Source: an uncultured Alcanivorax sp. (GTDB taxonomy: Bacteria > Pseudomonadota > Gammaproteobacteria > Pseudomonadales > Alcanivoracaceae). From it: a stretch of DNA of 64,000 bases. This document shows, one piece after another, positions 19,658 through 49,201 of this stretch (position 1 is its first letter; each line of letters opens with the position of its first letter). The notes under the pieces are model-generated. The model searched no databases and was not told where the DNA came from. It saw nothing but the letters and a program-made list of their open reading frames with translations. The stretch lies in contig NZ_CAMYIV010000005.1 in the NCBI RefSeq assembly GCF_947258575.1, forward strand, positions 124,001 through 188,000. The letters run 5' to 3'. The translations under genes and the position numbers were made by a program.

Positions 19658-19685
19658 TCCAGTGCGGCAAAACAGCACCGGTATC

Positions 19686-19722
19686 ACAACAAGGCCCCGC
19701 AATGCGGGGCCTTGTTGTGTCT
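19686..19722. terminator. Bidirectional rho-independent terminator
   Basis: ACAACAAGGCCCCGC (19686-19700) pairs with GCGGGGCCTTGTTGT (19704-19718) around an AAT loop. It lies 28 bp after fba (+) and 8 bp after the end of the converging META-domain gene (-), so it probably serves both. Confidence 0.9.
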
Positions 19723-19729
19723 GGCGCGG

Positions 19730-20158
19730 TTATTTCTGACGGGAGGCTTGGATCCTGACATCGTCAGCGCCGCTGAGGATCAGTTGCCCGTCCTCACTGA
19801 GATCGGCCTGGTTCACTCCTTCCAGGGCATCCAGAAACTGCTGCTCCAGTTTCATCAGCGGCTGTGGGCAGGCCATCATGGTGACGCCACCGGTCTTCAC
19901 CGTGAAACTGTCATCCTCCAGCGTATAGCTGGCCATGTAATTGTTGCAGGCGGCTTTGCCAGCCAGTCGACCGGGTTCGTGGAAGTTAAGGGTAACCAGC
20001 GCGTCGCCCACCTCGGAACCATTGACGGTGTTGACTTGCCAGGCGCTGCCCTGCAGTTGCTCGGTGGTTACCATGGCAGTGGTTCCTGCGGGATGGTTGC
20101 TACAGGCGGCCAGAGCCATGGCGGCGCCTGCCAGCAGGGAAAGTTTGAGTGGTTGCAT
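19730..20158 (-). CDS. META-domain (HslJ-like) lipoprotein
   Basis: The 142-residue precursor has a signal peptide ending in lipobox LAAC (Cys19), so it is lipid-anchored. The rest is one META domain: LQGSAWQVNTVNGS at its start and the paired-Cys strand AACNNYMASYTL followed by MACPQPLMKLEQQFLDAL. E. coli HslJ, with the same domain, is linked to novobiocin resistance and heat shock, but the biochemical role is unknown. AAGGACC precedes the start. It is monocistronic by context. Confidence 0.88.
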   Translation of the reverse strand: MQPLKLSLLAGAAMALAACSNHPAGTTAMVTTEQLQGSAWQVNTVNGSEVGDALVTLNFHEPGRLAGKAACNNYMASYTLEDDSFTVKTGGVTMMACPQPLMKLEQQFLDALEGVNQADLSEDGQLILSGADDVRIQASRQK

Positions 20159-20241
20159 ATCGGGTCCTTCTCGATGACGCGGTATTGAGTCGTCTTGAAT
20201 GAATTAGTCCCCGCCAGGGTGCAATAGTTTCCCTTGGCAGG

Positions 20242-20901
20242 CTAACCCTGATCGTTGACCGGGTTAACTGGCTCAAGGTGAGTCAGGGGCTGGTCCGGTT
20301 TAGGGTAGCTCCAGCGTGCCTGACGGTGGGTCAGGTGATAGCTGTCCAGGCCGGAAAGGGCCACAGTCCCTGCCTTCTCAATATCCACATAACCGTCACT
20401 GCCCAGGGCATAGCCGGGCAACTGGATATGTTCGATGGCGCCAATCACCATCACGGTGTCGTTGATCTGCAGGGTGTGGGTTTCCAGCAGCACCATGCCC
20501 AGGCGGATGCGTGCCTGCTCCACAAACGGTGCCGGGAAATCAGGCAGGTAAGCCGGCGTCAGACCGGTGGCCGTGAACTCGGACACCTCGCGCGGGTAGC
20601 GTGCGGCGGTCTGGTGGGCGGCAGGCACCATATCGCCATGCACCTGGTTGAGCGTATAGAAGCCGGTTTCCATCAGGTACTCCAGGCTGTGCCGGTCCAC
20701 GGAGTGGGGGCGAATGATCATGCCGATCAGGGCCGGGTCGGCGCCCAGATGGAAGCAGGAGCTGACAATGGACAGGTTCTCCTGGCCATTACTGGCGCGG
20801 GTGCCCAGCAGGTTTGCGCTCTTGAAGCCGGACAGGCTGTTGATCAGGTTGACCCGTTGTTGGCGTGGCAGGTCCTTGAGAGTATCGGCGGTCAGGTGCA
20901 T
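20242..20901 (-). CDS. Flavin reductase-like (FMN-binding split barrel) protein
   Basis: The 219-residue protein resembles the flavin reductase/FMN-binding family: LSGFKSANLLGTRASNGQENLSIVSS forms the first FMN-binding strands, and RHSLEYLMETGFYTLNQV the conserved helix and strand. The usual TGAxVVT motif is replaced by LLGTRAS, as in a subgroup often found in marine Gammaproteobacteria. The substrate is unknown; it could be an NAD(P)H:FMN reductase or a redox enzyme. AGGAGG precedes the start. It is divergent from the hydrolase at 20972. Confidence 0.82.
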   Translation of the reverse strand: MHLTADTLKDLPRQQRVNLINSLSGFKSANLLGTRASNGQENLSIVSSCFHLGADPALIGMIIRPHSVDRHSLEYLMETGFYTLNQVHGDMVPAAHQTAARYPREVSEFTATGLTPAYLPDFPAPFVEQARIRLGMVLLETHTLQINDTVMVIGAIEHIQLPGYALGSDGYVDIEKAGTVALSGLDSYHLTHRQARWSYPKPDQPLTHLEPVNPVNDQG

Positions 20902-20971
20902 GGTGTGCGTCCTCCTGGCGCCGTATTATCAGAAGCCGCCGTGAGTAAACCGTGGAGACCTCTTACCGGCT

Positions 20972-21922
20972 ATGGCAAATCCTTTCGACCGTGAGCATAT
21001 TGTTCAGCAGTGGCAGCCCCTCAACTGGGAAGCGTTTGATCCGCTCAGTGAATCCACCCGGCGCTACGTTGCCTACTATGGCCTGAATTTCGCAGAGCGC
21101 CTGCCGGATCTGGAGCATGGCTTCGGTTATTTCGAGGCGGCCGGTCACCAGCTGTCGGTGCATGCCTGGCGCCCTAGGGAGCCGCGCGGCACCGTGCTGG
21201 TCTGCCACGGCTACTTTGACCATGTGGGCCTGTACCGCCATATCATTGGTCATGTGCTGGAGCTGGGTTATGCGGTGCTGGCGTATGACCTGCCCGGCCA
21301 TGGTCTCAGTTCTGGCCCCCAGGCGGTGATCGATGATTTTCGTACCTACCGGGATGTGCTCGAGCAATGTCTGGCGCTGGCGGATAACCACTTTCCCGGG
21401 CCCTGGCATGTAATCGCCCAGAGCACTGGCGGCGCCATCGTGATGGACTACCTGTTAAGTCGCGGTGACGGCGATGCCAACCCCTTTGAGCATGTGATCC
21501 TGCTGGCGCCACTGGTACGGCCGTTCAAGTGGTCGTCGGCGCGCTGGCTACATACGTTTATCCGTCCCTTTGCTCGCAGTATCAAACGGGTTTTCACCAT
21601 CAACTCCAATGACCCGGATTTTCTGGATTTTCTTGAAAATCAGGATCCGCTCCAGGCGCGCCGGATGTCGGCGGTATGGGTATCCGCGCTGAAAAAATGG
21701 CTGCCGGGTTTTGAGAAGGCATCACGAATTAAGGTGTCGCCGGTGGTGATACAGGGGGACATGGATGAAACCGTCGACTGGCGTTATAACTTGAAGGTAA
21801 TTCAGGAAAAATTCCAGGATCCGCATATTCATATGCTGCCAGGAGCGCGCCATCAGCTGGTTAACGAGGATGAGGGGTTTCGCCGGAAAATTTTCGCGAT
21901 TATCGATCAATATCTCGACTGA
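20972..21922 (+). CDS. Alpha/beta hydrolase, lysophospholipase-like
   Basis: The 316-residue protein has the alpha/beta hydrolase order: oxyanion strand VLVCHGYFDHVGLYRHI, the YDLPGHGLSSG loop typical of monoacylglycerol lipase and PldB-type enzymes, and the nucleophile Ser in VIAQSTGGAIVMDYL (Ala replaces the first Gly of GxSxG). A C-terminal Asp (QGDMDETVDW) and His (LPGARHQL) complete the triad. No signal peptide is present, so it is cytoplasmic. It probably cleaves acyl esters such as lysophospholipids or monoglycerides. The ribosome site is weak. Confidence 0.87.
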   Translation: MANPFDREHIVQQWQPLNWEAFDPLSESTRRYVAYYGLNFAERLPDLEHGFGYFEAAGHQLSVHAWRPREPRGTVLVCHGYFDHVGLYRHIIGHVLELGYAVLAYDLPGHGLSSGPQAVIDDFRTYRDVLEQCLALADNHFPGPWHVIAQSTGGAIVMDYLLSRGDGDANPFEHVILLAPLVRPFKWSSARWLHTFIRPFARSIKRVFTINSNDPDFLDFLENQDPLQARRMSAVWVSALKKWLPGFEKASRIKVSPVVIQGDMDETVDWRYNLKVIQEKFQDPHIHMLPGARHQLVNEDEGFRRKIFAIIDQYLD

Positions 21923-34743: not shown

Positions 34744-34966
34744 TTCTCCTCCCCGTCCGCGCTCCCCCCTGCAAAAAGCCTAACTCCCCCGAAAAAGCTA
34801 CGAACATCCTTCTACCTGCTTCGATATCGAAGCGTTTATTTTTGTGTATATATGTAAATTTGGTGACGGTTTAGGCATTTGCCGTGATGTATTTGTGAAG
34901 GAAAGTTGGTACGTTTATGCCAACTTGTTGCGCACATAACTGTGTATGCAATTTGAAAATAAAAAC

Positions 34967-35002: not shown

Positions 35003-36367
35003 ATGACAATACGGAAACTGCTGCCAGCCATGTTGGCGGGTGTTGGGGTTGTGTGCATGTCGCCGGCACTGGCCAGCATGGGCAATATCGGTACCACTTA
35101 CGGGGTGCTGCCTTCTGATCTGGCTTCTGCTCAGGCCCTGTCGTTGTTCAACAGCCAGGTCTCCGCCACCTATTACAACCCGGCCTACCTGGCCCATGAC
35201 GATCGCGGCGAGCTGACCACCGGCCTGTTGCATGCGGACCATGAGTTGCGTGGGAGCAGCCTGGGTGGTGCTGCGCCGTTACCTCGCAGCAGCGATACGC
35301 TGCAGGACTCACCCTCCCAACACACCCTGCTGGGCATGAAGACCGACCTGTCCTCACTGACCCGCTATAACCACCCCATGTACCTGGGGTTCATGCTGGG
35401 GGTGGAGAAGTACGGTGAGGAAATGATGGCGTTCAATTCCCAGACTTCCGTTGAAGGTCAGTACTTTGAATTCGGCCGCCAGCCTCTGTTTCTCAACCTG
35501 GGCGGTGGCACGAAGATCTGGCGTGGCCTGGATATGGGCTTGTCTGCCCGCATTACCCTGCACTCCGAGGCAGAACTGGTGGCCACCTCGACCCTGGGTG
35601 GGGAGACCAGCTACGAGACGCTCAACGTGTCTGCCAAGCCCTCCATTCGTCCGATCTTCGGCATGAACATGGATTGGGGCGAGAGCTTCTGTGGCGAGGG
35701 CGATAACTGCTGGTACAACGGTCTGGAAACCGCCTTCAGCTTTCGCGGTTACTCCAACACCAACACCACGGTGGACTCCACCATCACCATCCCCGGCACG
35801 GTGCTGGACCCGGGCATCAACCTGGCCATCAGCACCGTGGATTCCTACCAGCCGAACATTTATGCCGCGGGTCTGGCCTACGGTCGTGATCGTTGGCGGG
35901 TGGGCCTGACCGTGGAAATGCAGGAATGGTCACGGCTGGAAGAAGAGCTGGAACGCGACACCATCAAGGACCAGGCGGTGAATGCCGCACAGGATGACTA
36001 TCGCCTTGAGTTCAAGGACATCGTGGTGCCCCGTCTGGGCGGCGAATTCCATCTGGATGACACCTACATGGTCACCGGCGGGGTAGCGTTCAGCGAATCG
36101 CCGCTGGATTCCGACGGTTCCCTGGAAGTGAACTATCTGGATACCGACAAATGGATTGTGGGCCTGGGGCTGACGGCCCGCTACAAGTCGGTGCCGGTGC
36201 TTGCCTACCCGGTGCGCCTGGATCTGGCCTACCAGTATCAGAAACTGGAGGCGCGCACCTTTGATCTCTACGACCGTCGCTCTCCGTCGTTCCCGCAGCC
36301 CTACGAAAGCGTGGAAGCGGACGGGGATGTCCATGTCTTTTCCGGCTCTATCACCCTGAAATTCTAG
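35003..36367 (+). CDS. FadL/OmpP1-family outer membrane barrel, cassette A
   Basis: The 454-residue precursor has a signal peptide (cleavage near SPALA/SMGNIG) and ends in Phe (SITLKF), the outer membrane assembly signal. FadL-like landmarks are the N-terminal YNPAYLAHDDRGELTTGL (compare the NPA segment after the FadL hatch), a W-S-x-L-E-E-E-L strand, FKDIVVPRLGGEFHLDD, GGVAFSESPLDSD and DKWIVGLGL. Two Cys (CGEGDNC) probably form an external-loop disulfide. FadL proteins admit fatty acids and other hydrophobic compounds. GGAG precedes ATG 35003. The lipoprotein gene follows 10 bp later. TraF-like barrels were considered but fit less well. Confidence 0.85.
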   Translation: MTIRKLLPAMLAGVGVVCMSPALASMGNIGTTYGVLPSDLASAQALSLFNSQVSATYYNPAYLAHDDRGELTTGLLHADHELRGSSLGGAAPLPRSSDTLQDSPSQHTLLGMKTDLSSLTRYNHPMYLGFMLGVEKYGEEMMAFNSQTSVEGQYFEFGRQPLFLNLGGGTKIWRGLDMGLSARITLHSEAELVATSTLGGETSYETLNVSAKPSIRPIFGMNMDWGESFCGEGDNCWYNGLETAFSFRGYSNTNTTVDSTITIPGTVLDPGINLAISTVDSYQPNIYAAGLAYGRDRWRVGLTVEMQEWSRLEEELERDTIKDQAVNAAQDDYRLEFKDIVVPRLGGEFHLDDTYMVTGGVAFSESPLDSDGSLEVNYLDTDKWIVGLGLTARYKSVPVLAYPVRLDLAYQYQKLEARTFDLYDRRSPSFPQPYESVEADGDVHVFSGSITLKF

Positions 36368-36377
36368 GAGATCGGCG

Positions 36378-39300
36378 ATGAGAACAAGAAATCTATGGCT
36401 GGTCACAGCCGCCGTGACCCTGGCCGCCTGTGGCGGCGATGCCGGAGACACCCCGTCCATTGCCGGTTGGCAGCAGGCCGAGGTCTATTACAGTTACCCC
36501 TATGACGGGCAGCAGAATCTGTCCCCGAAAACGCCGCTGGTACTGCGCTTTTCCCACGCCATGGAGGTGGATGCCAGTCACTTCACCCTGCTGCGCTGTG
36601 GGCAAGTGGATGATAGCTGCGCGGATACCGGCGACAATCGGGTGGCCTTGAGCGCCCCCCAGGCGCTGGACAGCGGCAAGGGGGTCAGCCTGCAGCCGCT
36701 TTCCCCATTGCAGGCGCATACCCACTATCGGCTGGTCATCGACGGCATCGAAACCAGCCAGGGTAGTCCGGTGTTCCCGGACGGCGGCCTGGATTTTGTC
36801 ACCCGTCTCAGCGAAGACGGCCCCATGTCCAGCCAGATGGCTACACCGGATCTGGCCATCAGTCAGATCATTCCCGATGGTGATGCCCTGCCGTTCATGG
36901 ATTTTTCCACCCTGCGGCTACGTTTCAACCAGATGCTCGACCCGGCCACGCTGGTGTACGGCGACACCGGCGCGGGTGCCTCCGTGGAGCTGGAGCACCA
37001 GGGTGACACCGTGCCTGCGGCGCTGCTGGTCAAGGGCAATGCGGTTACCGTGGACCCGCTGGATGACCTGACCCCGGGCCAGCAGTACACCCTGAAGTTC
37101 ACCTCGTCGGTACGCGGTGTGGATCAGGCCCAGCTGACCGGTGGCTTCGAGAAGAGTTGGGTCGCCGGTAATTCCATGCCCCGCGCTACCCTGGTACAGG
37201 ATGTTCTGAGTGCCAGTGATGACCAGGACGACCCCTGCAACGCTTCCGGTGCCCTGGTAGCCAAGCTCACCGGCGCCACCATGAACTGCGTGCCGATTCA
37301 GTCCACCCTGCTGGGTGACAAGGACGCCACCATGCAGACCGGTAATGTGTTTGCGGAGCTGGCCCACCTGCCCAACTACCCGAATGTGTCGCCACTGCGC
37401 ATTCCCCGCAACAGCCTGCTCACCGGCACCAACGTGACCGTCAAGGTGGCCGGGGAAGTGGCCGCCGGCATTGAGACCGGCGCCATCTCGGTGACCTTCC
37501 TGTCCGATGCGTCCGGTTACCTGTTGCCCAATCCCTACAGCGATGCCCATCAGGCGCCCAAACAGGTGAAGCTGTACATGGATGTGTCCATGACTGCGGA
37601 GAACCCGGAGGCCAATGGCGCTCTCAGCCAGACCCTCATGCATGTGGAGCTCAACGGCATGGCACTGGTGAAAGAGGGCCGCATGGAAATTGATGCGGTG
37701 GGTATCGTGGAGCCGAAAGTACTCGGCCAGGAAACCGCCTTTGGCTTGCTCAGCTTCCACATGAAGTCCTACGAGGACCAGGAAAATGCCCCGCAACCGG
37801 TGCCGGACATGACCGCACCGGTACGGCAATCCATGGTGCCAGCGGTGGATGCGGAGGGTATGGCGATGAATGCACGCCCCGGCGATGCGGTGATCCTGAA
37901 TTTCAGTGAGCCACTGGACACCGCCACCCTGCGAGCCGGTGATACCTTCGGCCTGCAACACAATGGCAGCCATGTGACGGTGGACTGGTACCTGGATGGC
38001 GCATCGCTGGTCATGCGTCCGGTCACGCCGCTGGCATTTGGTGAAAGCTACACCGCCATGGTCAGCGATCAGGTCACCGACCTGGCCGGTAACCCGGTTA
38101 TCCCCGTGAGCGACGCATTCAGCTTGCCGGAACGTATCGGTGGCAATGCCGCGCCCATGGTGCTTACCAGTTACCCGGGTTTCCCCTGTGCTGCTGACAA
38201 GGAGCACTGGGAAATCGAAGCCGGTAATCATGGCTTCTGTCAGGGTGTTAGCACCGATGACGACCGTAACCCGGTGCCGCATCTACCGGCGGATCGCGCT
38301 ATCCGGGTGAATTTCTCCCAGGATATCGCGGCAGAGTCCGTGGTGTTCGAAAACACCGATGCCTGCAACGTGGGCAGTTTCCGGGTGGAAAAAGTGGCGT
38401 TGGACCCGAGCACCGGTCGCCCGTTGCGCTACGACGAAGGTGGCAAGCGCAAATACAGCTGTGAAACCGGGGTAACGGGGCAACTGAAAGTGGGCACCCG
38501 CAGCCTGGTATTCACGCCGGACCAGCCCTGGGAAGCCGGCGCTTATTATCGCTATATCCTGATGAGCGTGAACCAGACCTCTGCCCAGCAGCCCGATGAT
38601 TGCAGCAGCGGCGAGGCTATCTGCTCCAGCGATGGCAAGCGTCTGCAGACAGCCATGCTGCGAGCGCCGGCGGGCGACATGGGCGGGCCGGACATGCATC
38701 TGCATTTCATTGCCAGTGCTCCGGTTGCCAGTGTCTTCCAGCCACTCAAGAATCTGCCCACTGCAGATCTCAATGGTAATGGCCGCTTTGATGTGGGCGA
38801 ACCGGGGTACCAGGGGGGCGAACCCGGTGCCAACACCACGGCGTTGATCATTGATCAGAGCAAGGGAAACAATGGCAGCGAAGGAGGGGTGACCGACCCT
38901 GCGTTGATCTGTGATCAGCCGGAGCAGTGCGGTATCCATGTGGTCGGCGGTCTCAACTCCGAGGTGATCGGCGCTACCGAGCCCTACGATGACCCCTCGA
39001 CAGCGGACGTGGAAGCCTGGCCGGCGGTAAGGGTAGGGTTGTACCCGACCCTGATCCAGGCGTCGTCTGTCACCCTGAAAGTGAAAATTCTCGGTATTGC
39101 AGAAAGTGATACACCCACGGAAACCCAGTTCATGCGCATGCGTTACAGCTGTGTCGCCTGGCCGGAGGATGCCGAGAACTTCTGCGGCAAGCAGAACCCG
39201 GATGGCAGTTTTGTCTTCGATGAGTGGGAGCGTCAGGGCCTGATTCCAGGCTGGATCGTGCAAACCCCGGACGGCCCGGAGTTCCGTGCCGATGTGAACC

Positions 39301-39554
39301 TGTATCTGGATGCCCCTTACATGCACATCCTGCTGGACGGTTCCCACAACCAGCACAGCTACCCGTTGACCATGAACCTGGCCGGGCCGGTGACGTTCCT
39401 GCCGGATGGCCGCATGGTGATCGAACAGCTCAACAGCAACGATATCGCTGTGGATGTGAATCTGTCAGTGCTGATCCTGAGCCCGAAGATCTACCTGAAA
39501 ATCCCGGCTGGCGGAGTCAAGCTCCAATACCTGGGTGAGCCCATCAAGCAGTAA
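36378..39554 (+). CDS. Large outer membrane lipoprotein with Ig-like (SbsA-type) repeats, cassette A
   Basis: The 1058-residue precursor has lipobox LAAC (Cys18) followed by Gly-Gly, predicting outer membrane sorting. Big_5/SbsA-type Ig repeats begin near residues 35 (YPYDGQQNLSPKTPLVLRFSH), 175 (MDFSTLRLRFNQMLDP), 495 (GDAVILNFSEPLDTATL) and 635 (ADRAIRVNFSQDIAAES). A central ~200-residue domain (about 285-480) opens with LTGATMNCVP and is shared with the other two paralogues. YPGFPCA and an EF-hand-like loop DLNGNGRFDVGE (797-808) follow. No GxSxG or other enzyme motif is seen. TAGGAG gives the ribosome site. It is co-transcribed with the FadL-like gene, suggesting a surface partner of that channel. 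Confidence 0.82.
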   Translation: MRTRNLWLVTAAVTLAACGGDAGDTPSIAGWQQAEVYYSYPYDGQQNLSPKTPLVLRFSHAMEVDASHFTLLRCGQVDDSCADTGDNRVALSAPQALDSGKGVSLQPLSPLQAHTHYRLVIDGIETSQGSPVFPDGGLDFVTRLSEDGPMSSQMATPDLAISQIIPDGDALPFMDFSTLRLRFNQMLDPATLVYGDTGAGASVELEHQGDTVPAALLVKGNAVTVDPLDDLTPGQQYTLKFTSSVRGVDQAQLTGGFEKSWVAGNSMPRATLVQDVLSASDDQDDPCNASGALVAKLTGATMNCVPIQSTLLGDKDATMQTGNVFAELAHLPNYPNVSPLRIPRNSLLTGTNVTVKVAGEVAAGIETGAISVTFLSDASGYLLPNPYSDAHQAPKQVKLYMDVSMTAENPEANGALSQTLMHVELNGMALVKEGRMEIDAVGIVEPKVLGQETAFGLLSFHMKSYEDQENAPQPVPDMTAPVRQSMVPAVDAEGMAMNARPGDAVILNFSEPLDTATLRAGDTFGLQHNGSHVTVDWYLDGASLVMRPVTPLAFGESYTAMVSDQVTDLAGNPVIPVSDAFSLPERIGGNAAPMVLTSYPGFPCAADKEHWEIEAGNHGFCQGVSTDDDRNPVPHLPADRAIRVNFSQDIAAESVVFENTDACNVGSFRVEKVALDPSTGRPLRYDEGGKRKYSCETGVTGQLKVGTRSLVFTPDQPWEAGAYYRYILMSVNQTSAQQPDDCSSGEAICSSDGKRLQTAMLRAPAGDMGGPDMHLHFIASAPVASVFQPLKNLPTADLNGNGRFDVGEPGYQGGEPGANTTALIIDQSKGNNGSEGGVTDPALICDQPEQCGIHVVGGLNSEVIGATEPYDDPSTADVEAWPAVRVGLYPTLIQASSVTLKVKILGIAESDTPTETQFMRMRYSCVAWPEDAENFCGKQNPDGSFVFDEWERQGLIPGWIVQTPDGPEFRADVNLYLDAPYMHILLDGSHNQHSYPLTMNLAGPVTFLPDGRMVIEQLNSNDIAVDVNLSVLILSPKIYLKIPAGGVKLQYLGEPIKQ

Positions 39555-39575
39555 TCCCGGGATGATGAAATCCTT

Positions 39576-39599
39576 GCCGGCCTTCGGGCCGGCTTTTTT
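39576..39599 (+). terminator. Rho-independent terminator of cassette A
   Basis: GCCGGCC-TTCG-GGCCGGC (39576-39593) is followed by TTTTTTA. It lies 22 bp after the lipoprotein stop, so each cassette is its own transcription unit. Confidence 0.92.
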
Positions 39600-39872
39600 A
39601 TGGTCATCTACCCTCCCGTCACATACCCGCCTTTCTGAAGGCAAACCGAAACCGCCCGGTTACATCAGTTAACAATACCGGTGCTCCCACCTACTTTTCT
39701 CAACTATTCCCAACTTTTTGCCAACGGCGCTGGCACCGTCGTTTTGTTTGACTTATTGCATATACACAGGGGGGAATAGGCGAGAGGCTGCATAGCTTCA
39801 CGTGTTGTTCTCCTGTCGCCTGGGAGCTTAACCTGAGGCGAAAACCCTAATAACAAACGCCGGAGAAGCGCT
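39600..39872 (+). promoter_or_regulatory. Leader and promoter region of cassette B
   Basis: The 273-bp gap after the terminator is AT-rich in its middle. GCATATACAC near 39757 is a possible -10, comparable to TATATA before cassette A and GTATATC before cassette C. TCGCCT (39815-39820) and AGGCGA (39836-39841) can form a leader hairpin. CCGGAG precedes the ATG at 39873. No gene is seen. Confidence 0.35.
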
Positions 39873-41228
39873 ATGACTACCAAGACCCTTACCCGCTGGG
39901 GAGCTGCTGTCATTGTCAGCACTGCCCTGTCGAGCCCTGTTTTTGCTGCCATGGGCAACACGGCCAGCACCTATGGCCTGCTTCCCGCTGATGTGGGGAC
40001 AGCCATGGGCCTTTCCATGTTCAACCCCCAGGCATCGGCGCTTTACTACAATCCGGCCTACTTGACCCGGGATCCCCGCGGTGAGCTGACCGTGGGCCTG
40101 TTGCACGGCGATCAGGAACTACGTGCCGTCAGCCAGGGCAACCCCAACGGTGGCGCGCCGTCAGTGATTCGTGATGGTGACGTACTGAATGACACCATGT
40201 CTCAGCAGCAGGTCATTGCGCTGAAAACCGATCTCACCGACATGACCAAGTTTGAACACCCGATCTACTTCGCGATCATTGCCGGCGTGGAAAAATTTGG
40301 TGAGGAAATGCTGGCGTTTGATTCCAGCACCAGCCGGGAAGGCCAGTTTTTCAACTACGGCCGACAGCCATTGTTCCTCAATCTCGGTGGCGGCCTCGAA
40401 CTGGCCAACGGTATTACCACCGGTGCCTCCGCGCACATTTCCCTGCGTTCTGAGGCTACCCTGATCGCCAGCGCCAACCTGGCCGGTGAAACCCAGCGCG
40501 AAGAGCTGACCGTGTCTGCCAAGCCGGTGATTCGTCCGGTGCTGTCCATGAATCTGGAATGGGACAAGGTGTTCTGCGGCAAGGAAGACTGCGGCATCTG
40601 GACCGGTCTGGAGACCGCTTTTGCTTTCCGCGGGCACACCGAGGCCCGCACCGCGGTGGAATCCAATCTGACCATTCCCGGTACCGTTATTGATCCGGGT
40701 ATTACCGTGTTGATCGATACCATCGATTCCTATCAGCCGGATATCTTCAGTGCCGGCCTGCTGTATCACTTCACCGACAACTTCCGCGCTGCCGTTACCG
40801 TCGAACAGCAGAACTGGAGTGACCTGGAAGATGAACTGGCCCGCGACACGGTCAAGGACCAGGCCTTCGCCGAGTTCAAGGATATCGTGGTACCGCGTAT
40901 TGGTGCAGAGTGGACGGTGAACGATCACCTGATTCTGTCCGGCGGTGTGGCGTATCAGGAAAGTCCGCTGGAAAGCATCCAGACCCCGGACGTGAACTAC
41001 CTGGACAGTGACAAATTGATTGTCGGCGTGGGCTCATCCCTGATCATCCAGAACCCGCCCATCCTCGCTTATCCGCTGCGCCTTGATTTCGGTTACCAGT
41101 TCCAGAAACTGGAAGAGCGGGATTTCGAGCTGACCACCACCCGTCCCGGTGTGGCGAACCCCTATGAAGTGGTAACCGCTGATGGCGATGTCCATGTGTT
41201 TTCCGGCGCTATCACGGTGAAGTTCTAA
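39873..41228 (+). CDS. FadL/OmpP1-family outer membrane barrel, cassette B
   Basis: The 451-residue precursor is cleaved near SPVFA/AMGN and ends in Phe (AITVKF). It follows the cassette A barrel throughout: STYGLLPADVGTAMGLSMFN, YYNPAYLTRDPRGELTVGLLHGDQELR, the loop Cys pair CGKEDC, WSDLEDELARDTVKDQ, FKDIVVPRIGAEW, GGVAYQESPLES and NYLDSDKLIVG. It is the most divergent of the three, lacking the DD/E-rich segment after VKDQ. GGAG precedes the start. Its lipoprotein gene begins 12 bp after the stop. The substrate is unknown; the FadL family suggests hydrophobic molecules. Confidence 0.85.
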   Translation: MTTKTLTRWGAAVIVSTALSSPVFAAMGNTASTYGLLPADVGTAMGLSMFNPQASALYYNPAYLTRDPRGELTVGLLHGDQELRAVSQGNPNGGAPSVIRDGDVLNDTMSQQQVIALKTDLTDMTKFEHPIYFAIIAGVEKFGEEMLAFDSSTSREGQFFNYGRQPLFLNLGGGLELANGITTGASAHISLRSEATLIASANLAGETQREELTVSAKPVIRPVLSMNLEWDKVFCGKEDCGIWTGLETAFAFRGHTEARTAVESNLTIPGTVIDPGITVLIDTIDSYQPDIFSAGLLYHFTDNFRAAVTVEQQNWSDLEDELARDTVKDQAFAEFKDIVVPRIGAEWTVNDHLILSGGVAYQESPLESIQTPDVNYLDSDKLIVGVGSSLIIQNPPILAYPLRLDFGYQFQKLEERDFELTTTRPGVANPYEVVTADGDVHVFSGAITVKF

Positions 41229-41240
41229 CGGAGGTGTTCC

Positions 41241-44200
41241 ATGAAAAAGAATAATATCGCCCTGACAGCACTGACCGCCCTTGCGGTGGCAGGCTGTGGC
41301 GGGGACAAGGACAGGGTGAGTTTCGATACACCCACCTTCAATGCACGCAACCTGCACTACACCTACCCGCTGGATAACCAGACCCAGTTGGCGCCGCGTG
41401 CCATTGTGGCATTACAGTTCAGCCATACCGTATCGGCCACGGCAGATAATTTCGTGTTCCAGGATGCGGATGGCGCGGATGTGGCCTTCACCCTGGAATC
41501 CGTGGCAGATGGCCGGGGTGTGGTGCTGACCCCTGTGGATGCACTGTCTCCGGCAACGGATTACAAGGTGGTCATGAATGGCGTCACCGTGCTCGGTGAA
41601 ACCACCACTTTCAAGGACGGCGAGCTCAATTTCACCACCCGCGCCGCTCTGGAAGGACCGCTGGATACCCAGCAGACCGCCGCCAGCTTTGAAGTGGAGT
41701 CCATCTTCCCGGATGACGACCAGTTCGAAAGCATGGATTTCTCCAGTTTCCGGCTGCGCACCACCAAGCCCATTGATGCGTCCACGGCGGTTTATGGTGA
41801 CACCGTCAGCCTGATGAGCAACGGCGAACTGGTGCCGGCACAACTGCTGGTTGGCCGTACCGCGATTACCGTGGACCCGCTGGAAGACATGACCCCCGGC
41901 CAGACCTATGAGCTGGGTGTCAACGGCGTGCTCAGCCAGTCCGGCGAAACCATTGCCGGCTTTACGCATTCCACCGTGCCCCAGGACACCACCTCTCCCA
42001 CCACCGGTGAGCGGGCGGTACTGGTGACCAATGCACCGCCGGCGGATGATTCCCTGGGCTGTCTGGATGAAGGGGTGATCACCTCCGAACTGACCGGTCA
42101 GCCGATCAACTGCGTGCCGGTGATTGGTACCCTGCTGCAGGACAAGACCGTATCCAAGCAGTCCGGTGACGTGTATGCGGAGCTGGCGTTTACCCCCAAC
42201 TTCCCGGATGTCACCCCGCTGCGGGTCAAGAAGGGCGGCATTCTTACCGGTGATGCGCTGGAAGTCTTTATTGGCGGTGAAGTGCCGGTGGGCTTTGATT
42301 CCGGGGAAGTGACGGTACAGATCATTTCCGATGCTACCGGTTATCTGTTCCCCAACCCCAATGCCGAAAGCGACGATGCGCCCAAGCAGCTGCGGTTGAT
42401 GATGGATGTGGCTACCTCCACCTCCGACGCCCGCGCCAATGGGGCGTTTACCCAGAACCTGATGCATCTGGAGCTGGTGGGCACTGGCCTGATTGAAGAT
42501 GGCCAGCTCAATACCGATGCCATCACCGTGGTGGAGCCGCGCGTGTTGGGCGTGGAAAACAGCTACGGGGTGCTCAGCTTCCGTATGGAGTCCTACCTGG
42601 ATCAGGAAAATGCGCCGATCCAGCCGATCGATTCCGTGAATCCCATCGTTCCCGTTCTGAATGGGGATAACGGCCCGGAATTGTCCTGGCAGCCAGGTAA
42701 TGTGGCAGACCGCATGGAACCGGGTGAGCCCATTGTTATTCACTTCAGCGAAGCGCTGGAGCCGCAAAGCATCAACGCGGGCACTTCGCTGATGCTCAGC
42801 AAAGGTGGCGTTGCCGAGCCCTTCAGTTGGGAACTCAGCGGTAATGCGCTGGTGATTACCCCGGATAGCCCGGTGGAATACGGCGTGGAATATGTGGTGA
42901 CCACCACACCGGAAATCACCGACCTGGCCGGTAACCCGCTACAGATGCTCGACTCTCTGGAAGGCGACAACTCCCTGGACTTCACCCTGCCGGAATACGT
43001 GGTGGATGACGGTGGCGACGATGTTCGCCGTGGGCCGTTCGCGTCCACCGTTTACCCGGGCTTCCCTTGCGCCAGCAGCACTGCCAGCCAGGGCGAAATT
43101 GACGCCGGCACTCAAGGCGTGTGTGTGTCTTCCAGTCCGGAAGCGGATCAGGTTGTGATTGACCAGCTGCCCATCGTTGGGTTGCCGGCCAACCGCCCGG
43201 TCAAGGTGCGTTTCTCCCAGAACATGGACCCGAGCACCCTGGTGCTTGGCGATACCGTGTTGGTACAAGCGGACGACAACGGCACCTGGGTTGATGTGGA
43301 GGGTGAGCTCACAGTAGAAACCCGTGGCTTCACCTTTACACCCAATCAGCCCTGGGATGACACCGGTGACACCCTGTACCGTTATGTGATGGCCGGAAAT
43401 GGTGGCGGTACCGGTTGTGCCGGCATCTGCTCCGCCGACGGGCTTCCCCTGCAAACGGCTCCGTTGCTCGGTGGCGGTTTGAAAGACGGTGGCCCTGACA
43501 TGGAGATTCTGTTCCGGGGTGAAACCGCTGTAGATACCATCTTCCAGGAGCTGGGTAACCTGCCCAGTGCTGATGTGAACAACAACTTCCAGATCGACAG
43601 CAACGAACCGGTGTTGACCGGGGATACCATTGATCCGGCCAATACACCGGCCAATGCCACCATGATTGTGCCTCGCGGTACCGGTGGGGAAGGGTTGGTG
43701 GCTTACGCCAATACCGGTTGCGGTTTTGACAACGTAGCCAGTGGTGAGCCCACCCAGTGTGACGGTGACAAGATCATTTACATCACCGGGTTGCTGAATA
43801 CGGAAATTCTGGATTTCGATGCCGAAAACCAGGGTGTCCCCGTGGTGATCTATCCTACTGCCGTGGCCTTGACCAACCTGGATGCGACGGCGGTTATTGG
43901 TCTGCGACTGACCTCGGATGATGAAACCGGTGGATTGCTCGGTATTATCCCGGTGGTCGGTGACCTGCTTCAGGGTGTTGTGGATGGGCTGCTGGGTGCC
44001 ACTGGCATCGATAACCTCATTGAGGCGGTCGGGCTGGACAACATCGGCCTGGCACCTGTGCCCACCGCCACCGGCCCCAACATCTTGCGGGTGCGCTACG
44101 AGCCGGAAGATCCCAATGATCCGAACAGCCCGCGCACCGTGCCGCCGGTAGGCCTTATCGTGGATACCCCGGATGGCCTGGTGTTCCGTATCCAGTTCGA

Positions 44201-44459
44201 CCTGCTGTTCGATGCCCCGGCACTGAGCCTGCCGCTGGGTCTGGAGCACAATGTGAAGAGCCTGCCCATCGACAATGTACAACTGGAAGGGCCGCTGGAC
44301 TTCCTGCCCGATGGGCGCCTGTTCATCGGTCTGCAAAACCAGGAAGCCCTGGATGTGGACCTGGAGATCACCCTGGCCGGTTTCGATGGTGGCAAGGTGT
44401 TGCTGCAGATTCCGCTGGGCGGCATCAACCTCAGCTACCAGAGCGCATCCATTCAGTGA
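41241..44459 (+). CDS. Large outer membrane lipoprotein with Ig-like (SbsA-type) repeats, cassette B
   Basis: The 1072-residue precursor has lipobox VAGC (Cys19) followed by Gly-Gly. Its order matches cassette A: Ig-like repeats near residues 35 (YPLDNQTQLAPRAIVALQFSH), 170 (MDFSSFRLRTTKPID), 490 (GEPIVIHFSEALEPQS) and 650 (NRPVKVRFSQNMDPST), the central domain from LTGQPINCVP, the YPGFPCA signature and the EF-hand-like loop DVNNNFQIDSNE (778-789). A unique hydrophobic insert (about 893-945, GGLLGIIPVVGDLLQGVV) resembles an amphipathic or membrane-active helix. GGAGGT precedes the start. No catalytic motif is recognised. Confidence 0.82.
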   Translation: MKKNNIALTALTALAVAGCGGDKDRVSFDTPTFNARNLHYTYPLDNQTQLAPRAIVALQFSHTVSATADNFVFQDADGADVAFTLESVADGRGVVLTPVDALSPATDYKVVMNGVTVLGETTTFKDGELNFTTRAALEGPLDTQQTAASFEVESIFPDDDQFESMDFSSFRLRTTKPIDASTAVYGDTVSLMSNGELVPAQLLVGRTAITVDPLEDMTPGQTYELGVNGVLSQSGETIAGFTHSTVPQDTTSPTTGERAVLVTNAPPADDSLGCLDEGVITSELTGQPINCVPVIGTLLQDKTVSKQSGDVYAELAFTPNFPDVTPLRVKKGGILTGDALEVFIGGEVPVGFDSGEVTVQIISDATGYLFPNPNAESDDAPKQLRLMMDVATSTSDARANGAFTQNLMHLELVGTGLIEDGQLNTDAITVVEPRVLGVENSYGVLSFRMESYLDQENAPIQPIDSVNPIVPVLNGDNGPELSWQPGNVADRMEPGEPIVIHFSEALEPQSINAGTSLMLSKGGVAEPFSWELSGNALVITPDSPVEYGVEYVVTTTPEITDLAGNPLQMLDSLEGDNSLDFTLPEYVVDDGGDDVRRGPFASTVYPGFPCASSTASQGEIDAGTQGVCVSSSPEADQVVIDQLPIVGLPANRPVKVRFSQNMDPSTLVLGDTVLVQADDNGTWVDVEGELTVETRGFTFTPNQPWDDTGDTLYRYVMAGNGGGTGCAGICSADGLPLQTAPLLGGGLKDGGPDMEILFRGETAVDTIFQELGNLPSADVNNNFQIDSNEPVLTGDTIDPANTPANATMIVPRGTGGEGLVAYANTGCGFDNVASGEPTQCDGDKIIYITGLLNTEILDFDAENQGVPVVIYPTAVALTNLDATAVIGLRLTSDDETGGLLGIIPVVGDLLQGVVDGLLGATGIDNLIEAVGLDNIGLAPVPTATGPNILRVRYEPEDPNDPNSPRTVPPVGLIVDTPDGLVFRIQFDLLFDAPALSLPLGLEHNVKSLPIDNVQLEGPLDFLPDGRLFIGLQNQEALDVDLEITLAGFDGGKVLLQIPLGGINLSYQSASIQ

Positions 44460-44486
44460 TTTCTCTCCAGTAGTTCCTTGAAATAT

Positions 44487-44512
44487 GCCCCGGCTTGTCC
44501 GGGGCTTTTTTT
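44487..44512 (+). terminator. Rho-independent terminator of cassette B
   Basis: GCCCCGG (44487-44493) pairs with CCGGGGC (44499-44505) around CTTGT and is followed by TTTTTTT. It lies 27 bp after the lipoprotein stop. Confidence 0.92.
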
Positions 44513-44812
44513 GTTTTCCCTGAAGCAGATATCCTCGACCCGTTGGCGCCTTGCTGGCAAGGCGAAGCCCGGACGACCCCGATATCCTGATCTGTGCCCT
44601 GGCCGCTGCCGACTTTTTGGCACATTCGTGCCGGACGTGGCGCCCCTTTCTCCTGCCAAGTGCATCACTGTTTTCAACAATTTTACGTATATCTGTCGCG
44701 GATTACGCCGATTACCGCTTTCTTCCTATGTGAATGCCTGTGTACTCCTGACTAGGGTGTCATCCCCCTGTCGCCACCCCCGCGACACAGAAAAAGAAAT
44801 CAGGAGTGCACA
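44513..44812 (+). promoter_or_regulatory. Leader and promoter region of cassette C
   Basis: The 300-bp gap contains TTACGTATATCTG near 44683 (possible -10), and TGTCGC (44769-44774) with GCGACA (44782-44787) forming a hairpin 25 bp before the start. CAGGAG is the ribosome site. CCTGTCGCC appears here and in the cassette B leader (39811-39820), hinting at a shared leader element. No gene is supported. Confidence 0.35.
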
Positions 44813-46171
44813 ATGTCTGTTTCATTCAAGGGACGCGCTGCCGTCGTTGCCGGCGGTTTGCTGATGCAGTCTGTTGCCATGGGCAGCATGGGTAACATCG
44901 GTACCACCTACGGCGTGTTGCCTTTCGATCTGGCCACCGCCCAAGCCCTGAGCCTGTTCAACAGCCAGACCTCAGCCACCTATTACAACCCGGCCTATCT
45001 GGCCAAGGATTCGCGCGGCGAACTCACCGCCGGTTTCATGCACGCGGACCATGAGCTGCGCGCTAACAGCCTGGGCGGCGCGGATGCGCCGGTACGGAAC
45101 GGTGATGTGATTCAGGACTCTCCCTCCCAGCATGTGCTGATCGGCATGAAGACCGATCTCACCTCGCTGACCCAATACGATCATCCGCTCTATCTGGGCC
45201 TGATGCTGGGCGTGGAAAAATACGGTGAGGAAATGCTCGCCTTCGAATCCCAGACCTCCCAGCAAGGGCAGTACTTCGAGTATGGCCGTCAGCCCCTGTT
45301 TCTGAATCTGGGCGGTGCCACCCAGCTGTGGCGGGGGATCGACGTGGGTGCCACCGCCCGGATTACCCTGCATGCCGAAGCCGACCTGGCCGCCACCACG
45401 GACCTGGCCGGTAACACCCGCTATGAAAAACTGGAAGTGTCCGCCAAGCCCGCCATCCGGCCGATCTTCGGCATCAACATGGATTGGGGCGAGACCTTCT
45501 GCGCCGAAGGCGACGACTGCTGGTTCAATGGTCTGGAAACCGCGCTGGCCTATCGCGGCTATTCCAATACCAAGACGGAAGTGAACGCCAATGCGGTGAT
45601 CCCCGGGGTAATTTCCAGCCCGGGCCTGATGCTGGCCATCAACACCCTGGATTCCTACCAGCCCAACATCCTCAGCGGTGGCCTGCATTACCAGTCCGGT
45701 CGCTGGCGCACCGGGGTGAGCGTAGAATGGCAGGAGTGGTCGGCGCTGGAAGAGGAATTCGAGCGCGACACCATCAAGGACCAGACCGTCAATGGCGATG
45801 TGGGTCAGCTGCGTTTCAAGGATGTGGTGATCCCGCGGCTGGGCGCCCAGTACCGCCTCAACGACACCTTTACCTTCAATGGTGGCCTGGCCTTCAGCGA
45901 ATCACCGCTGGATTCCGACGCCTCCGTGGACGTTAACTATCTGGATAGCGACAAGTGGATCGTTGGCCTGGGTGTGGCCGCTGAGTTCAAGGAACCGTGG
46001 TTGCTGGCCTACCCGGTGCGTCTGGACTTCGGTTACCAGTACCAGAAGCTGGAAGCCCGGGAGTTCGATATCTATGACACCCAGTCCGCCGCTTACCCGC
46101 AGCCCAGCGAACGGGTGGAAGCGGAAGGTGACGTCCACGTCTTCAGCGGTTCCCTGACCCTGAAATTCTGA
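44813..46171 (+). CDS. FadL/OmpP1-family outer membrane barrel, cassette C
   Basis: The 452-residue precursor has a signal peptide (cleavage near SVAMG/SMGN) and C-terminal Phe (SLTLKF). It is very close to the cassette A barrel: SMGNIGTTYGVLPFDLATAQALSLFN, NPAYLAKDSRGELTAGFMHADHELR, loop Cys pair CAEGDDC, WSALEEEFERDTIKDQ, FKDVVIPRLGAQYRLND, GGLAFSESPLDSD and NYLDSDKWIVGLG. The A/C similarity suggests the more recent duplication involved these two. AGGAG precedes the ATG. The lipoprotein gene starts 14 bp downstream. Confidence 0.85.
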   Translation: MSVSFKGRAAVVAGGLLMQSVAMGSMGNIGTTYGVLPFDLATAQALSLFNSQTSATYYNPAYLAKDSRGELTAGFMHADHELRANSLGGADAPVRNGDVIQDSPSQHVLIGMKTDLTSLTQYDHPLYLGLMLGVEKYGEEMLAFESQTSQQGQYFEYGRQPLFLNLGGATQLWRGIDVGATARITLHAEADLAATTDLAGNTRYEKLEVSAKPAIRPIFGINMDWGETFCAEGDDCWFNGLETALAYRGYSNTKTEVNANAVIPGVISSPGLMLAINTLDSYQPNILSGGLHYQSGRWRTGVSVEWQEWSALEEEFERDTIKDQTVNGDVGQLRFKDVVIPRLGAQYRLNDTFTFNGGLAFSESPLDSDASVDVNYLDSDKWIVGLGVAAEFKEPWLLAYPVRLDFGYQYQKLEAREFDIYDTQSAAYPQPSERVEAEGDVHVFSGSLTLKF

Positions 46172-46185
46172 TTGCGGAGGCAAGC

Positions 46186-49134
46186 ATGATGTTGCGAATA
46201 CTTTCCCTGATTGCCGCCGCGTCGCTGCTGGTCGCCTGTGGCGGCGGTAGCGAGCAGACGGTGGATTACAGCGCCCGTAAAAAAGGGCAGGTCTATTACA
46301 GCTATCCGGCGGATGAACAGACCGGCGTGTCCGTGCATGCGCCGGTGGTGGTGCAGTTTTCCGAGCCGCCAACACTGGCCGATCAGGACGTGAGCCTGGT
46401 GGGGCCGGATGGCCAGGTGGATGTGGTGCTATCCCGCGCCGACCAGGACCGGTCCCTGGTGGTGACTCCCCAAGCGCCGCTGGCATTCCATAGCGATTAC
46501 CGGCTGCAGCTGGATGGCATGACGCTGGCCGGTTTCAGCGGTGGCGAGCTGGCCTTCACCACCGGCACTGCCGGCAAGGGCCCGGCCAGCGAGCAACAGC
46601 AGGCGGAGGCTTTTACCGTCAGCCGCTTTTCGCCGTCCGCTGACGACACCCGCCCGCTGATGGATTTCTCTACCCTGCACGTGCAGTTCAGCCAGCCGCT
46701 GGACCCGGGCACGGTGGAGTACGGCACCACCGTCAGCCTGGAAGATGGCAGCGGCAACCTGGTGGAGGCCAGCGTGCTGGCAGGCAGCAACCGCCTCACG
46801 GTAGACCCGGCTGGCGACCTGCAACCGGGGCAGAGCTATACCCTGATGCTCGATAGCGCCCTGAGCAGCCGTTTCGGCACGGCCCTGACCGGCGACAGTG
46901 AGTTTGCGGTAAACCCGCAGGACTCTCAGCCCCGTGAAACCCTGGCTCTGGAAGCCATGGCCGCCGACCCGGTGAAAGGCTGTAATGAGGAAGGCGTGAC
47001 ACTGTCTCCGCTGACCGGCGCGCCGATCAACTGTGTGCCCCTGATTGCCCGTTTGCTGGGCAACACCACGGTGTCGAAACTGTCCGGGGATCTGTTTGCC
47101 GACCTGGCCTTTATTCCCAACTACCCGGACGCCTCGCCGCTGCGGATTCGCAAGGGCGCGCTGCTAAAAGGCGCGCCGCTGGAAGTCTTGATCGGTGGCC
47201 AGTTGCCCGCCGGCTTTGATTCCGGCGAGGTGACGGTGAGCTTCCTGTCCGATGCCACCGGCTACCTGTTGCCGGCCCCCTACAGTGCCCGCCCGGAAGC
47301 GCCGCGCCGCATCATGCTGACCCTGGATCTGGCGTTTTCCACTGCCGATTCCCGTGCCAACGGCGCCTTCACCCAGACCCTGTTGCAAGTGGAGCTGGTG
47401 GGCCGTGCCATCGTCGAAGAGGGGCGTATGGAGATCGATGCCCTGGGTGTGGTCGAGCCGGAAGTGCTCGGTATCGAAACCGCCTTTGGCGTACTCAGCT
47501 TCCATATGGAATCCTACCTGGATCAGGAGAATGCCCCGGCGCCGCCGGTGGATATCACCGGGCCCACCCTGCAAAGCTGGCAGCCCGGTGACTATGCGGA
47601 CCGCTTCCGCCCCGGTGATCCCATTGTCCTCAATCTCAGTGAAACCCCGGATCAGGACAGCATTGAAGCCGGCGTCAGTGTCACTCTCACCGACCAGGGG
47701 GCGGCGGTGCCGTTCAACTGGACCCTGGATGGGGCCTCGCTGATCCTCACCCCGGAGCAGCCGCTGGCATTCGGCACCGAGTATCAGGTCACGCTCACCG
47801 ACGGTGTGGAAGACCTGCACGGTAACCCGGCTAGCCCGGAAACCCTGCTGTTCAGCATGCCTGCTTACAGCCCGGATGCGCCGCGCACGCCTTACACCAC
47901 CACTGTGTACCCGGGCTTTCCCTGCGCCGTGGATCCGTCCAGTCGCGATCTGGGTAACGGCATTCAGGGTCAGTGCGCCAGTGCCTTCCAGAACCAGGCC
48001 GGCGACCTGCTGCCAGTGGATGAGATGCCTGCCAACCGGCCTATTGAAGTGCAATTCTCCCAGGACATGGATGCCAGCAGCATGGTGCTCGGCCAGGCCT
48101 GCGGTGAAGGCAGTGTGCGAGTGGAAAAAATCGACAGTGCGGGTAACTGTCTGGAGGCGGTGCCCGGCTACCTGTCCCGCAACACCCGCTCACTCACGGT
48201 GATTCCCGCACAGCCCTGGGAAGAGGGCACCTTGTACCAGTATGTGCTCGGGTCCCATGAAAACACCGGCTGCGGCCAGGACGTGATCTGCTCGGTGGCG
48301 GGTATGCCCCTGCAGACCGCCCAGTTGCTGGCGCCGGCTGCGGATGAAGGTGGCCCGGATATGGCCATTGCCTTTACCGGTGCCCCGGCCACCAGCAATG
48401 TGTTCCTGCCGCTGCGCAACCTGCCGAAGGCGGATGTGAACGCCAACTTCGAGATGGATGCCGGTGAGCAAAAAGCGGTGGAAGACCCGCCAGGCAGCGG
48501 CGAGTACCCCACGCCCACTAATGCCGCCTCCCTGTTTGTCACCGGCACCGGCGGTCTGGCCACCGGCGCCAACGTGGGCTGCCCACTGAACCAGAGCTGC
48601 CCCGGGGAGAAGTTCACCTACCTGAACGGTGGCATCAATGCGGACATCATCGGCTGGAACGAGGACGAGCAGGCGGTGGAAGTGCTGCTCTACCCGCCGG
48701 TGTTGATGACCACCAACAGCAGCGTCTATGCCCAGATCCTCGGTCTGGTGGAGCCGGAAGTGCCCACCGAGCCGCTGGTGATGCGTGCCCGCTATGCGGA
48801 TGACGGCAGCGGCAATCGTACCGAGCCGGTGCGCGGCTATATCCGTCACGACGGCAATTCGCTGACCTTCGACACCACCCTGGATCTGTTTCTGGATGCC
48901 CCGGAAATGGAAGCGCCGCTGGGGCTGCCACACAACCTGCACAGTCTGGAGCTCAATGACCTGCAGTTGAACGGCCCGGTGGAGTTCCTGGCCGATGGTC
49001 GCCTGGTGATCGGCCTGCTCAGTCTCAATGAGCAGGCTGTCGATGTCAGTATCGGTGGCGGCGCGGCCACCATCGACCTGCAGATCCCTGCCGGCGGCGT
49101 CAACCTGACCTTCCAGAGCGGTTCCATCAAGTAA
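46186..49134 (+). CDS. Large outer membrane lipoprotein with Ig-like (SbsA-type) repeats, cassette C
   Basis: The 982-residue precursor has lipobox LVAC (Cys18) followed by three Gly. Domain order equals A and B: Ig-like repeats near residues 35 (YPADEQTGVSVHAPVVVQFSE), 155 (MDFSTLHVQFSQPLDP), 475 (GDPIVLNLSETPDQDS) and 610 (NRPIEVQFSQDMDASS), the central domain from LTGAPINCVP, YPGFPCA, and the EF-hand-like loop DVNANFEMDAGE (750-761). The C-terminal strand-rich domain ends FLADGRLVIGLLSL...AGGVNLTF, as in the others. It is the shortest copy and lacks the hydrophobic insert of B. GGAGG precedes the start. Confidence 0.82.
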   Translation: MMLRILSLIAAASLLVACGGGSEQTVDYSARKKGQVYYSYPADEQTGVSVHAPVVVQFSEPPTLADQDVSLVGPDGQVDVVLSRADQDRSLVVTPQAPLAFHSDYRLQLDGMTLAGFSGGELAFTTGTAGKGPASEQQQAEAFTVSRFSPSADDTRPLMDFSTLHVQFSQPLDPGTVEYGTTVSLEDGSGNLVEASVLAGSNRLTVDPAGDLQPGQSYTLMLDSALSSRFGTALTGDSEFAVNPQDSQPRETLALEAMAADPVKGCNEEGVTLSPLTGAPINCVPLIARLLGNTTVSKLSGDLFADLAFIPNYPDASPLRIRKGALLKGAPLEVLIGGQLPAGFDSGEVTVSFLSDATGYLLPAPYSARPEAPRRIMLTLDLAFSTADSRANGAFTQTLLQVELVGRAIVEEGRMEIDALGVVEPEVLGIETAFGVLSFHMESYLDQENAPAPPVDITGPTLQSWQPGDYADRFRPGDPIVLNLSETPDQDSIEAGVSVTLTDQGAAVPFNWTLDGASLILTPEQPLAFGTEYQVTLTDGVEDLHGNPASPETLLFSMPAYSPDAPRTPYTTTVYPGFPCAVDPSSRDLGNGIQGQCASAFQNQAGDLLPVDEMPANRPIEVQFSQDMDASSMVLGQACGEGSVRVEKIDSAGNCLEAVPGYLSRNTRSLTVIPAQPWEEGTLYQYVLGSHENTGCGQDVICSVAGMPLQTAQLLAPAADEGGPDMAIAFTGAPATSNVFLPLRNLPKADVNANFEMDAGEQKAVEDPPGSGEYPTPTNAASLFVTGTGGLATGANVGCPLNQSCPGEKFTYLNGGINADIIGWNEDEQAVEVLLYPPVLMTTNSSVYAQILGLVEPEVPTEPLVMRARYADDGSGNRTEPVRGYIRHDGNSLTFDTTLDLFLDAPEMEAPLGLPHNLHSLELNDLQLNGPVEFLADGRLVIGLLSLNEQAVDVSIGGGAATIDLQIPAGGVNLTFQSGSIK

Positions 49135-49145
49135 CCGCCAAACGC

Positions 49146-49201
49146 GAGGCCGCTCCCGTAACCAGCCCTGCGCTGCTTTGTGGGAGCGGTCGTTAGGCCG
49201 C
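49146..49201. repeat. Inverted repeat after cassette C
   Basis: GAGGCCGCTCCC and GGGAGCGGTC (within 49147-49190) are inverted around about 22 bp, with CGCGA-type flanks. The GGGAGCGG wording relates it to the REP-like elements elsewhere. It may serve as a transcription stop for cassette C, which lacks a T-run terminator. Confidence 0.5.

Follow-up and report, generated by a model that had tools for sequence, protein, structure and literature searches.

We asked what is encoded by three consecutive gene pairs in the window (the whole 64,000-nucleotide stretch of DNA analysed here), each consisting of a gene for a FadL-type barrel followed by a gene for a lipoprotein, and whether they form a system without a described counterpart, as the initial annotation had claimed. 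Judged by homology, the locus is a set of tandem copies of aupAB, the alkane-uptake operon of Marinobacter, and its kind is already described. The open reading frames were confirmed at the positions first assigned to them (Table 1), and the gaps between barrel and lipoprotein (10 bp in unit A, 12 bp in unit B and 14 bp in unit C) agree with the 10–14 bp layout of the initial annotation. Its description of giant lipoproteins with Ig repeats and outer membrane sorting residues holds as well: all three lipoproteins (982–1072 aa) pass Pfam Big_5 (3.8e-30 to 7.6e-41, 3–4 stretches each), carry a signal peptide and lipobox recognised by eye, and have Gly-Gly after the lipobox cysteine.

Table 1. Positions of the three barrel–lipoprotein units and associated features in the window.
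Feature	Position	Strand	Remarks
Unit A barrel, AupA homologue (FadL family)	35003..36367	+	NF041571 608 bits; ORF opens at 34946, 35003 being the start chosen in the initial annotation
Unit A lipoprotein, AupB homologue	36378..39554	+	1058 aa; Big_5 Ig domains
Unit A AupB, predicted lipidated Cys18 (LAAC-GG)	36429..36431	+	invariant C18 G19 G20
Terminator-like hairpin 3′ of unit A	39576..39593	+	hairpin scan, folding compared to shuffles
Unit B barrel, AupA homologue	39873..41228	+	NF041571 522 bits
Unit B lipoprotein, AupB homologue	41241..44459	+	1072 aa; Big_5
Unit B AupB, predicted lipidated Cys19 (VAGC-GG)	41295..41297	+	
Terminator-like hairpin 3′ of unit B	44487..44505	+	hairpin scan, folding compared to shuffles
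Unit C barrel, AupA homologue	44813..46171	+	NF041571 617 bits; model matches FadL/TodX structures
Unit C lipoprotein, AupB homologue	46186..49134	+	982 aa; Big_5; model pLDDT 84.5, pTM 0.85
Unit C AupB, predicted lipidated Cys18 (LVAC-GG)	46237..46239	+	

A fourth AupA/AupB pair of the same genome lies outside the window on the minus strand (G000:C4:21743-23014 and 18634-21657). The named sequences closest to the window units come from Alcanivorax, for example A. jadensis T9 and Alcanivorax sp. DSM 26293, and the A. jadensis T9 AupB is 94 percent identical to the unit C AupB. The source is probably an oil-eating marine bacterium, and the earlier suggestion that the organism feeds on alkanes agrees with its nearest relatives, which belong to an alkane-feeding genus. 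Judged by eye from their translations, the genes of the 5′ flank encode an apparent ABC substrate-binding protein and permease, and those of the 3′ flank are glycine-cleavage genes.

All three barrels pass Pfam Toluene_X (FadL, PF03349; 2.9e-10 to 2.6e-15) and match the NCBIfam AupA model NF041571 from profile position 13 or 14 to 444 of 444. Their scores of 522–617 bits all miss the equivalog cut-off of 840 bits, and consequently they are not filed as NCBI equivalogs. The predicted structure of the unit C AupA has middling confidence (pLDDT 68, pTM 0.69) and matches FadL of P. aeruginosa and E. coli (3dwo, 3pgs and 1t16; E 2e-15 to 1e-14), with TM values of 0.52–0.60 by either length among the best ten matches. 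Sequence searches of the PDB with AupA also returned 3dwo, together with TodX.

The equivalog cut-off is passed by ten AupA genes in 9 of the 293 genomes of the order, presumably Marinobacter, and each of the ten is followed by a gene for an AupB relative, whose lipobox is LAAC-GG in nine cases and LAGC-GD in the tenth (L075). We judged homology to the Marinobacter-type AupB through these genes, rather than through MARHY0477 and MARHY0478 themselves: a profile built from the window's three AupB proteins matched nine of them, and a wider profile matched the tenth (L075). Because the barrels and lipoproteins are those of aupAB, which was published in 2018 with genetics, co-immunoprecipitation and a multi-copy distribution (Mounier et al., PMC5989066), the claim of an undescribed system was wrong. 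According to that report, AupA of Marinobacter hydrocarbonoclasticus SP17 is FadL-like, aupB begins 11 nt downstream and both genes are induced on hexadecane. The aup mutants show reduced growth on liquid and solid alkanes and normal growth on hexadecane vapour, and they neither grow on nor bind or incorporate hexadecane in Brij 58 micelles. The same report describes an AupA–AupB complex, in which AupB co-precipitates with AupA, multi-copy aupAB pairs in Alcanivorax (up to six) and isolated aup copies. The accessions given are H8WEC1 for AupA and H8WEC0 for AupB (PMC7822026), and in the Marinobacter TT1 proteome of that paper the AupB homologue appears as an Ig-like domain protein that is 4.6-fold up on hexadecane. 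The accessible text of a Thalassolituus alkane proteomics study (PMC6304351) does not mention AupB.

The hairpin scan found 20 terminator-like sites, compared to 11.9 (sd 3.6) in shuffled sequences, and the sites after units A and B have the most G-C pairs of all of them. In both hairpins 7 of 7 pairs are G-C, followed by T6 (A) or T7 (B), and both fold better than shuffles (z of -3.6 and -2.8, respectively, with 1 of 200 shuffles equally good in each case), in agreement with the strong terminators that had been annotated there. The same scan found no terminator-like site directly downstream of unit C, and the promoter scan gave no excess (7 sites compared to 5.1, sd 2.7, in shuffles). The gap that separates unit C from the following gene folds at z -2.3 as a whole and contains, at window positions 49148-49191, a long, imperfect hairpin that includes a GTGGGAGCGG motif. 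A REP-like repeat was rejected for this hairpin, as the fuller pattern tried has a single occurrence in this genome.

We next considered how regularly the two proteins occur together. AupA (E up to 1e-20) is present in 35 of the 293 genomes of the order, and strong clade-1 AupB is present in the same 35. The AupB profile matched 11 other genomes, two through a sister clade only (G173 and G234) and nine through weak matches, mostly to Ig domains. Starting from AupB, we found AupA directly upstream in 45 of 48 places when the best two candidates per genome were scored (the exceptions are G043:C40, G203:C35 and G203:C31), and in 30 of the 35 complete distinct copies of a second set of loci (the exceptions are L024, L025, L033, L036 and L037). 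These two counts are unbiased; the pooled count of 76 of 82 has an upward bias, since the AupA there was the reason for fetching many of its loci. The pairing counts used 69 of 70 AupA rows (the partial G080:C30 was left out) and 48 clade-1 AupB rows of at least 600 bits, leaving out sister-clade rows, fragments and weak Ig matches, while 12 truncated rows, 6 duplicates and 4 short pieces were removed before the pooled count. As the long-model searches scored the best two candidates per genome, the copy numbers taken from them are lower bounds. The AupB genes without an adjoining AupA are all on Alloalcanivorax or Alcanivorax contigs or in genomes of the same family; around each of them except G203:C31, no AupA was found within the fetched stretch. 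The initial annotation had staked its reading on the lipoproteins not occurring frequently without a FadL partner, and this stands for the clade-1 copies but not for 13 copies of the sister clade, which have an OmpW barrel. The composition of the pairs also varies, with extra AupA genes adjoining complete pairs (for example AupA-AupA-AupB) at L016, L017, L026, G043:C21 and G203:C13 (L093, L094). Decayed or frame-broken aup copies are present in other genomes (L070 and L105).

The two proteins have also diverged together. Distances between AupA proteins and between AupB proteins correlate with r = 0.858 (74 pairs); when partners were swapped within a genome or locus, r fell to 0.456 (sd 0.048), and none of 2000 swaps reached 0.858. 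Part of this co-divergence arises because adjacent genes are linked. For all four of the genome's own pairs, the nearest foreign relatives of AupA and of AupB belong to the same pair, as they do for 50 of the 74 over all pairs. From these comparisons we take the units to be old copies that have diverged while staying stably paired, and not fresh duplicates. AupB is the less conserved protein (median identity 37 percent, compared to 52 percent for AupA), and the effective alignment depths of the two proteins are about 30 and 39 sequences.

The confident structure model of the unit C AupB (Table 1) is nearly all beta, and its strands, Pfam matches and alignment divide the protein into a tether followed by domains Ig1, Ig2, X1, Ig3, Ig4 and X2. 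The two halves, each Ig-Ig-X, are homologous (probability 98.3, E 1.9e-14), and the Ig1-Ig3 and Ig2-Ig4 alignments beat the Ig1-Ig2 alignment. X1 against X2 alone gives a weak match (E 0.001–0.006, probability 6–21), and the duplication therefore rests on the Ig pairs and the whole halves. By these alignments, AupB is built of two homologous halves on a tether. Conservation is highest in X1 (2.35; X2 has 1.98 and the Ig domains 1.87–2.10). Four sub-stretches of X1 and X2 had no Pfam match even at E up to 10, and the AupB profile found no PDB sequence match at 0.01. The best 50 of 954 Foldseek matches to the model are multi-domain Ig-type beta proteins (S-layer proteins, receptors and L,D-transpeptidases) with TM values of 0.08–0.14 by query length. 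An L,D-transpeptidase-like enzyme was rejected, since 4hu2, which consists of domains A and B alone, matches too, and we read the transpeptidase match as one to Ig domains. A SusD-like fold was likewise rejected, on the beta content of the model and on these best 50 matches. Outside the Ig domains, then, Pfam, PDB sequence and Foldseek searches recognised no fold of known function in AupB.

Vibrio cholerae VolA is a large lipoprotein beside a FadL-type channel, and AupB could in principle be a surface lipase paired with FadL in the same manner. The pairing logic is similar, and the unit C lipoprotein has a marginal match to TIGR03502 (E 0.042); that match, however, covers 40 residues within Ig3, and its 12 bits fall far short of the 383.9-bit cut-off. 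No lipase domain passed a cut-off in the window lipoproteins, consistent with the absence of a lipase motif in the initial annotation, and GxSxG occurs once, in unit C; it was not found in AupB of units A and B or of the fourth copy, leaving it in one of the four own copies. We rejected a VolA/Pla-1 lipase on the TIGR03502 score and the missing lipase domain, and regard a VolA-like function as extremely improbable.

The +2 sorting rule for lipoproteins is known from E. coli, and by this rule a lipobox with Gly at +2 predicts an outer-membrane lipoprotein. Among clade-1 AupB proteins the +2 residue is Gly in 80 of 85 sequences, Ser in 2, Asp in 2 and Glu in 1 (85 being 87 less two CVP rows from L017 and L026, where we took the motif match in a truncated ORF to be false), and a Gly-rich stretch often follows the lipobox cysteine. 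The sequence signal for the inner membrane, Asp at +2, is absent from the window units and present in those 2 of 85 relatives. AupB is thus, going by its signal sequence, most likely a lipoprotein anchored in the outer membrane. In Marinobacter, the inner-membrane fraction contained most of the AupB and the outer-membrane fraction a small part (PMC5989066). The word lipoprotein is absent from the accessible main text of that paper, and the accessible part of PMC12472514 does not term AupB a lipoprotein.

The sister clade (clade 2) has a member in the same genome, outside the window, an AupB relative with 28 percent identity in its best-matching stretch (G000:C11, L013:5235-8588). An OmpW-family barrel (PF03922, 4.2e-16) is encoded directly downstream of it; the pair occupies L013:5235-9457, corresponding to about 394234-398456 of G000:C11, with genes for an acyl-CoA dehydrogenase, a 2-dehydropantoate-reductase-like protein and an MDR-family reductase nearby. 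We found an OmpW barrel directly downstream in 13 of the 13 complete sister-clade copies that were fetched (L013, L064-L069 and L086-L091), and these loci were chosen by their lipoprotein match, independently of OmpW. Of the 293 genomes of the order, the 12 that have this OmpW subfamily (>180 bits) are also the 12 that have the clade-2 lipoprotein (>800 bits), and each is present in 13 copies (one OmpW, in G263, is in two pieces); three further OmpW matches, at 75–86 bits, are in other genomes. The +2 residue of the 13 sister-clade lipoproteins, read by eye, is mixed (6 Gly, 4 Glu, 2 Asp and 1 Ser). An AsmA-like DUF748 protein follows the lipoprotein–OmpW pair in six loci (L064 by score and L065-L069 by sequence). 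At L064:231-11347, the other strand upstream carries an LpoB-like gene together with a two-component system that resembles the 'proteobacterial dedicated sortase' models, with the regulator above and the kinase below cut-off. Among 369 genomes drawn class-wide (including the own genome and a few from the same order), three others, G351, G461 and G568, yielded four loci with distant relatives; OmpW adjoins two of them (L135 and L136) and none was found at the other two (L137 and L138). Lipid-transport genes of the MlaD/ABC (Mce) type lie on the opposite strand beside two of these distant relatives, L136:9496-13026 and L138:7733-10197; for L138 this was read from the sequence alone. Literature searches on OmpW with Ig-like or DUF748 returned, among the titles seen, none about such a pair.

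Homology, pairing, co-divergence, lipobox and predicted fold are observed here, while we infer the function in this genome and the side of the membrane. It is highly probable that the locus holds three diverged tandem aupAB units of an Alcanivorax-type genome, each with an AupA alkane channel and an AupB that is its dedicated lipid-anchored partner; units A to C may differ in substrate or regulation. By analogy with the FadL family, long alkanes would leave surfactant or emulsion micelles through the AupA lumen, and AupA would pass them sideways into the outer membrane as a lateral-diffusion channel. AupB would bind AupA as a dedicated lipidated partner and would either supply the channel with alkane or, in the proposal of Mounier et al., extract alkane from the outer membrane for passage towards the hydroxylases of the inner membrane. 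The likely role of AupB is to capture alkane and hand it over at a lateral-diffusion channel; the genetics and biochemistry behind this come from Marinobacter.

Within this main explanation, two arrangements are nearly even. In the proposal of Mounier et al., which we put just short of an even chance, AupB would be a periplasm-facing bridge, anchored in one membrane and extending to the other, that carries alkane from AupA to the inner membrane. The dual fractionation and co-immunoprecipitation (PMC5989066) favour it, the modelled chain of six domains in AupB would suit it, and DUF748 follows the pair in the six sister-clade loci; against it, the lipobox predicts an outer membrane anchor, DUF748 was not found after the own-genome pair (L013), and no lipid-transfer fold was recognised in X1 or X2. 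Alternatively, and in line with the initial annotation, AupB could be exposed at the surface and dock micelles or oil outside the channel, SusD-like in logic but not in fold, a credible arrangement to which we give somewhat less than an even chance. The lipobox (83 of 85 lack Asp at +2, and the Gly-rich stretch is frequent) and the lost binding of micellar hexadecane in aup mutants (PMC5989066) also fit this surface receptor, and co-sedimentation with the inner membrane in Marinobacter (PMC5989066) argues against it. Conservation of AupA was compared using our own loop assignment, taken from the middling-confidence model. Predicted outer loops L2 (136-161; 2.85) and L6 (363-380; 2.76) exceed the average of 2.50, which favours a surface partner; against it, L1, L5 and L7 are under average and the pooled outer loops are no better conserved than the periplasmic turns (2.41 compared to 2.40). 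Loop conservation did not single out the face of AupA that contacts AupB.

The passage of alkanes, which are nearly insoluble, across the cell envelope is poorly understood, and AupB is required for micellar alkane without an established mechanism. Its lipobox, its two-half build and the one-to-one pairing with two channel families make its role directly testable. Three features go beyond the literature searched and give the locus its interest: the lipoprotein signal, the build of AupB in two halves and the sister clade paired with OmpW. We give an even chance to a broader reading, in which AupB-type lipoproteins would be a general partner class for hydrophobe importers of both FadL and OmpW/AlkL types, with AupB in the outer membrane and its published inner-membrane site incomplete or an effect of fractionation. 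If true, one lipoprotein superfamily and two barrel families would provide two-part uptake machines for hydrophobic substrates.

Compared to Marinobacter aupAB, the locus has the same order, barrel first and partner next, with a gap of 11 nt there and 10–14 here, and a predicted terminator after aupB (here after units A and B). It differs in having three tandem units plus a fourth elsewhere in the genome, in barrels that score under the NCBIfam equivalog cut-off, and in an AupB that is predicted to be an outer-membrane lipoprotein, whereas Marinobacter AupB was published as an inner-membrane protein. The likeness to VolA/FadL of Vibrio cholerae lies in a large lipoprotein adjoining a FadL-type channel; VolA is a lysophospholipase, as far as the accessible literature describes it, whereas AupB here has no lipase domain. 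SusD is alpha-helical and SusC is TonB-dependent. The combination of lipoprotein and outer-membrane channel makes SusC–SusD a loose analogy only, and unlike the helical SusD, the AupB model is nearly all beta. OmpW/AlkL channels pass hydrophobic compounds, and it is with a barrel of this family that the sister clade of AupB pairs; this pair lies outside the window, has a barrel of a Pfam family other than FadL and, in contrast to aupAB, places the lipoprotein first.
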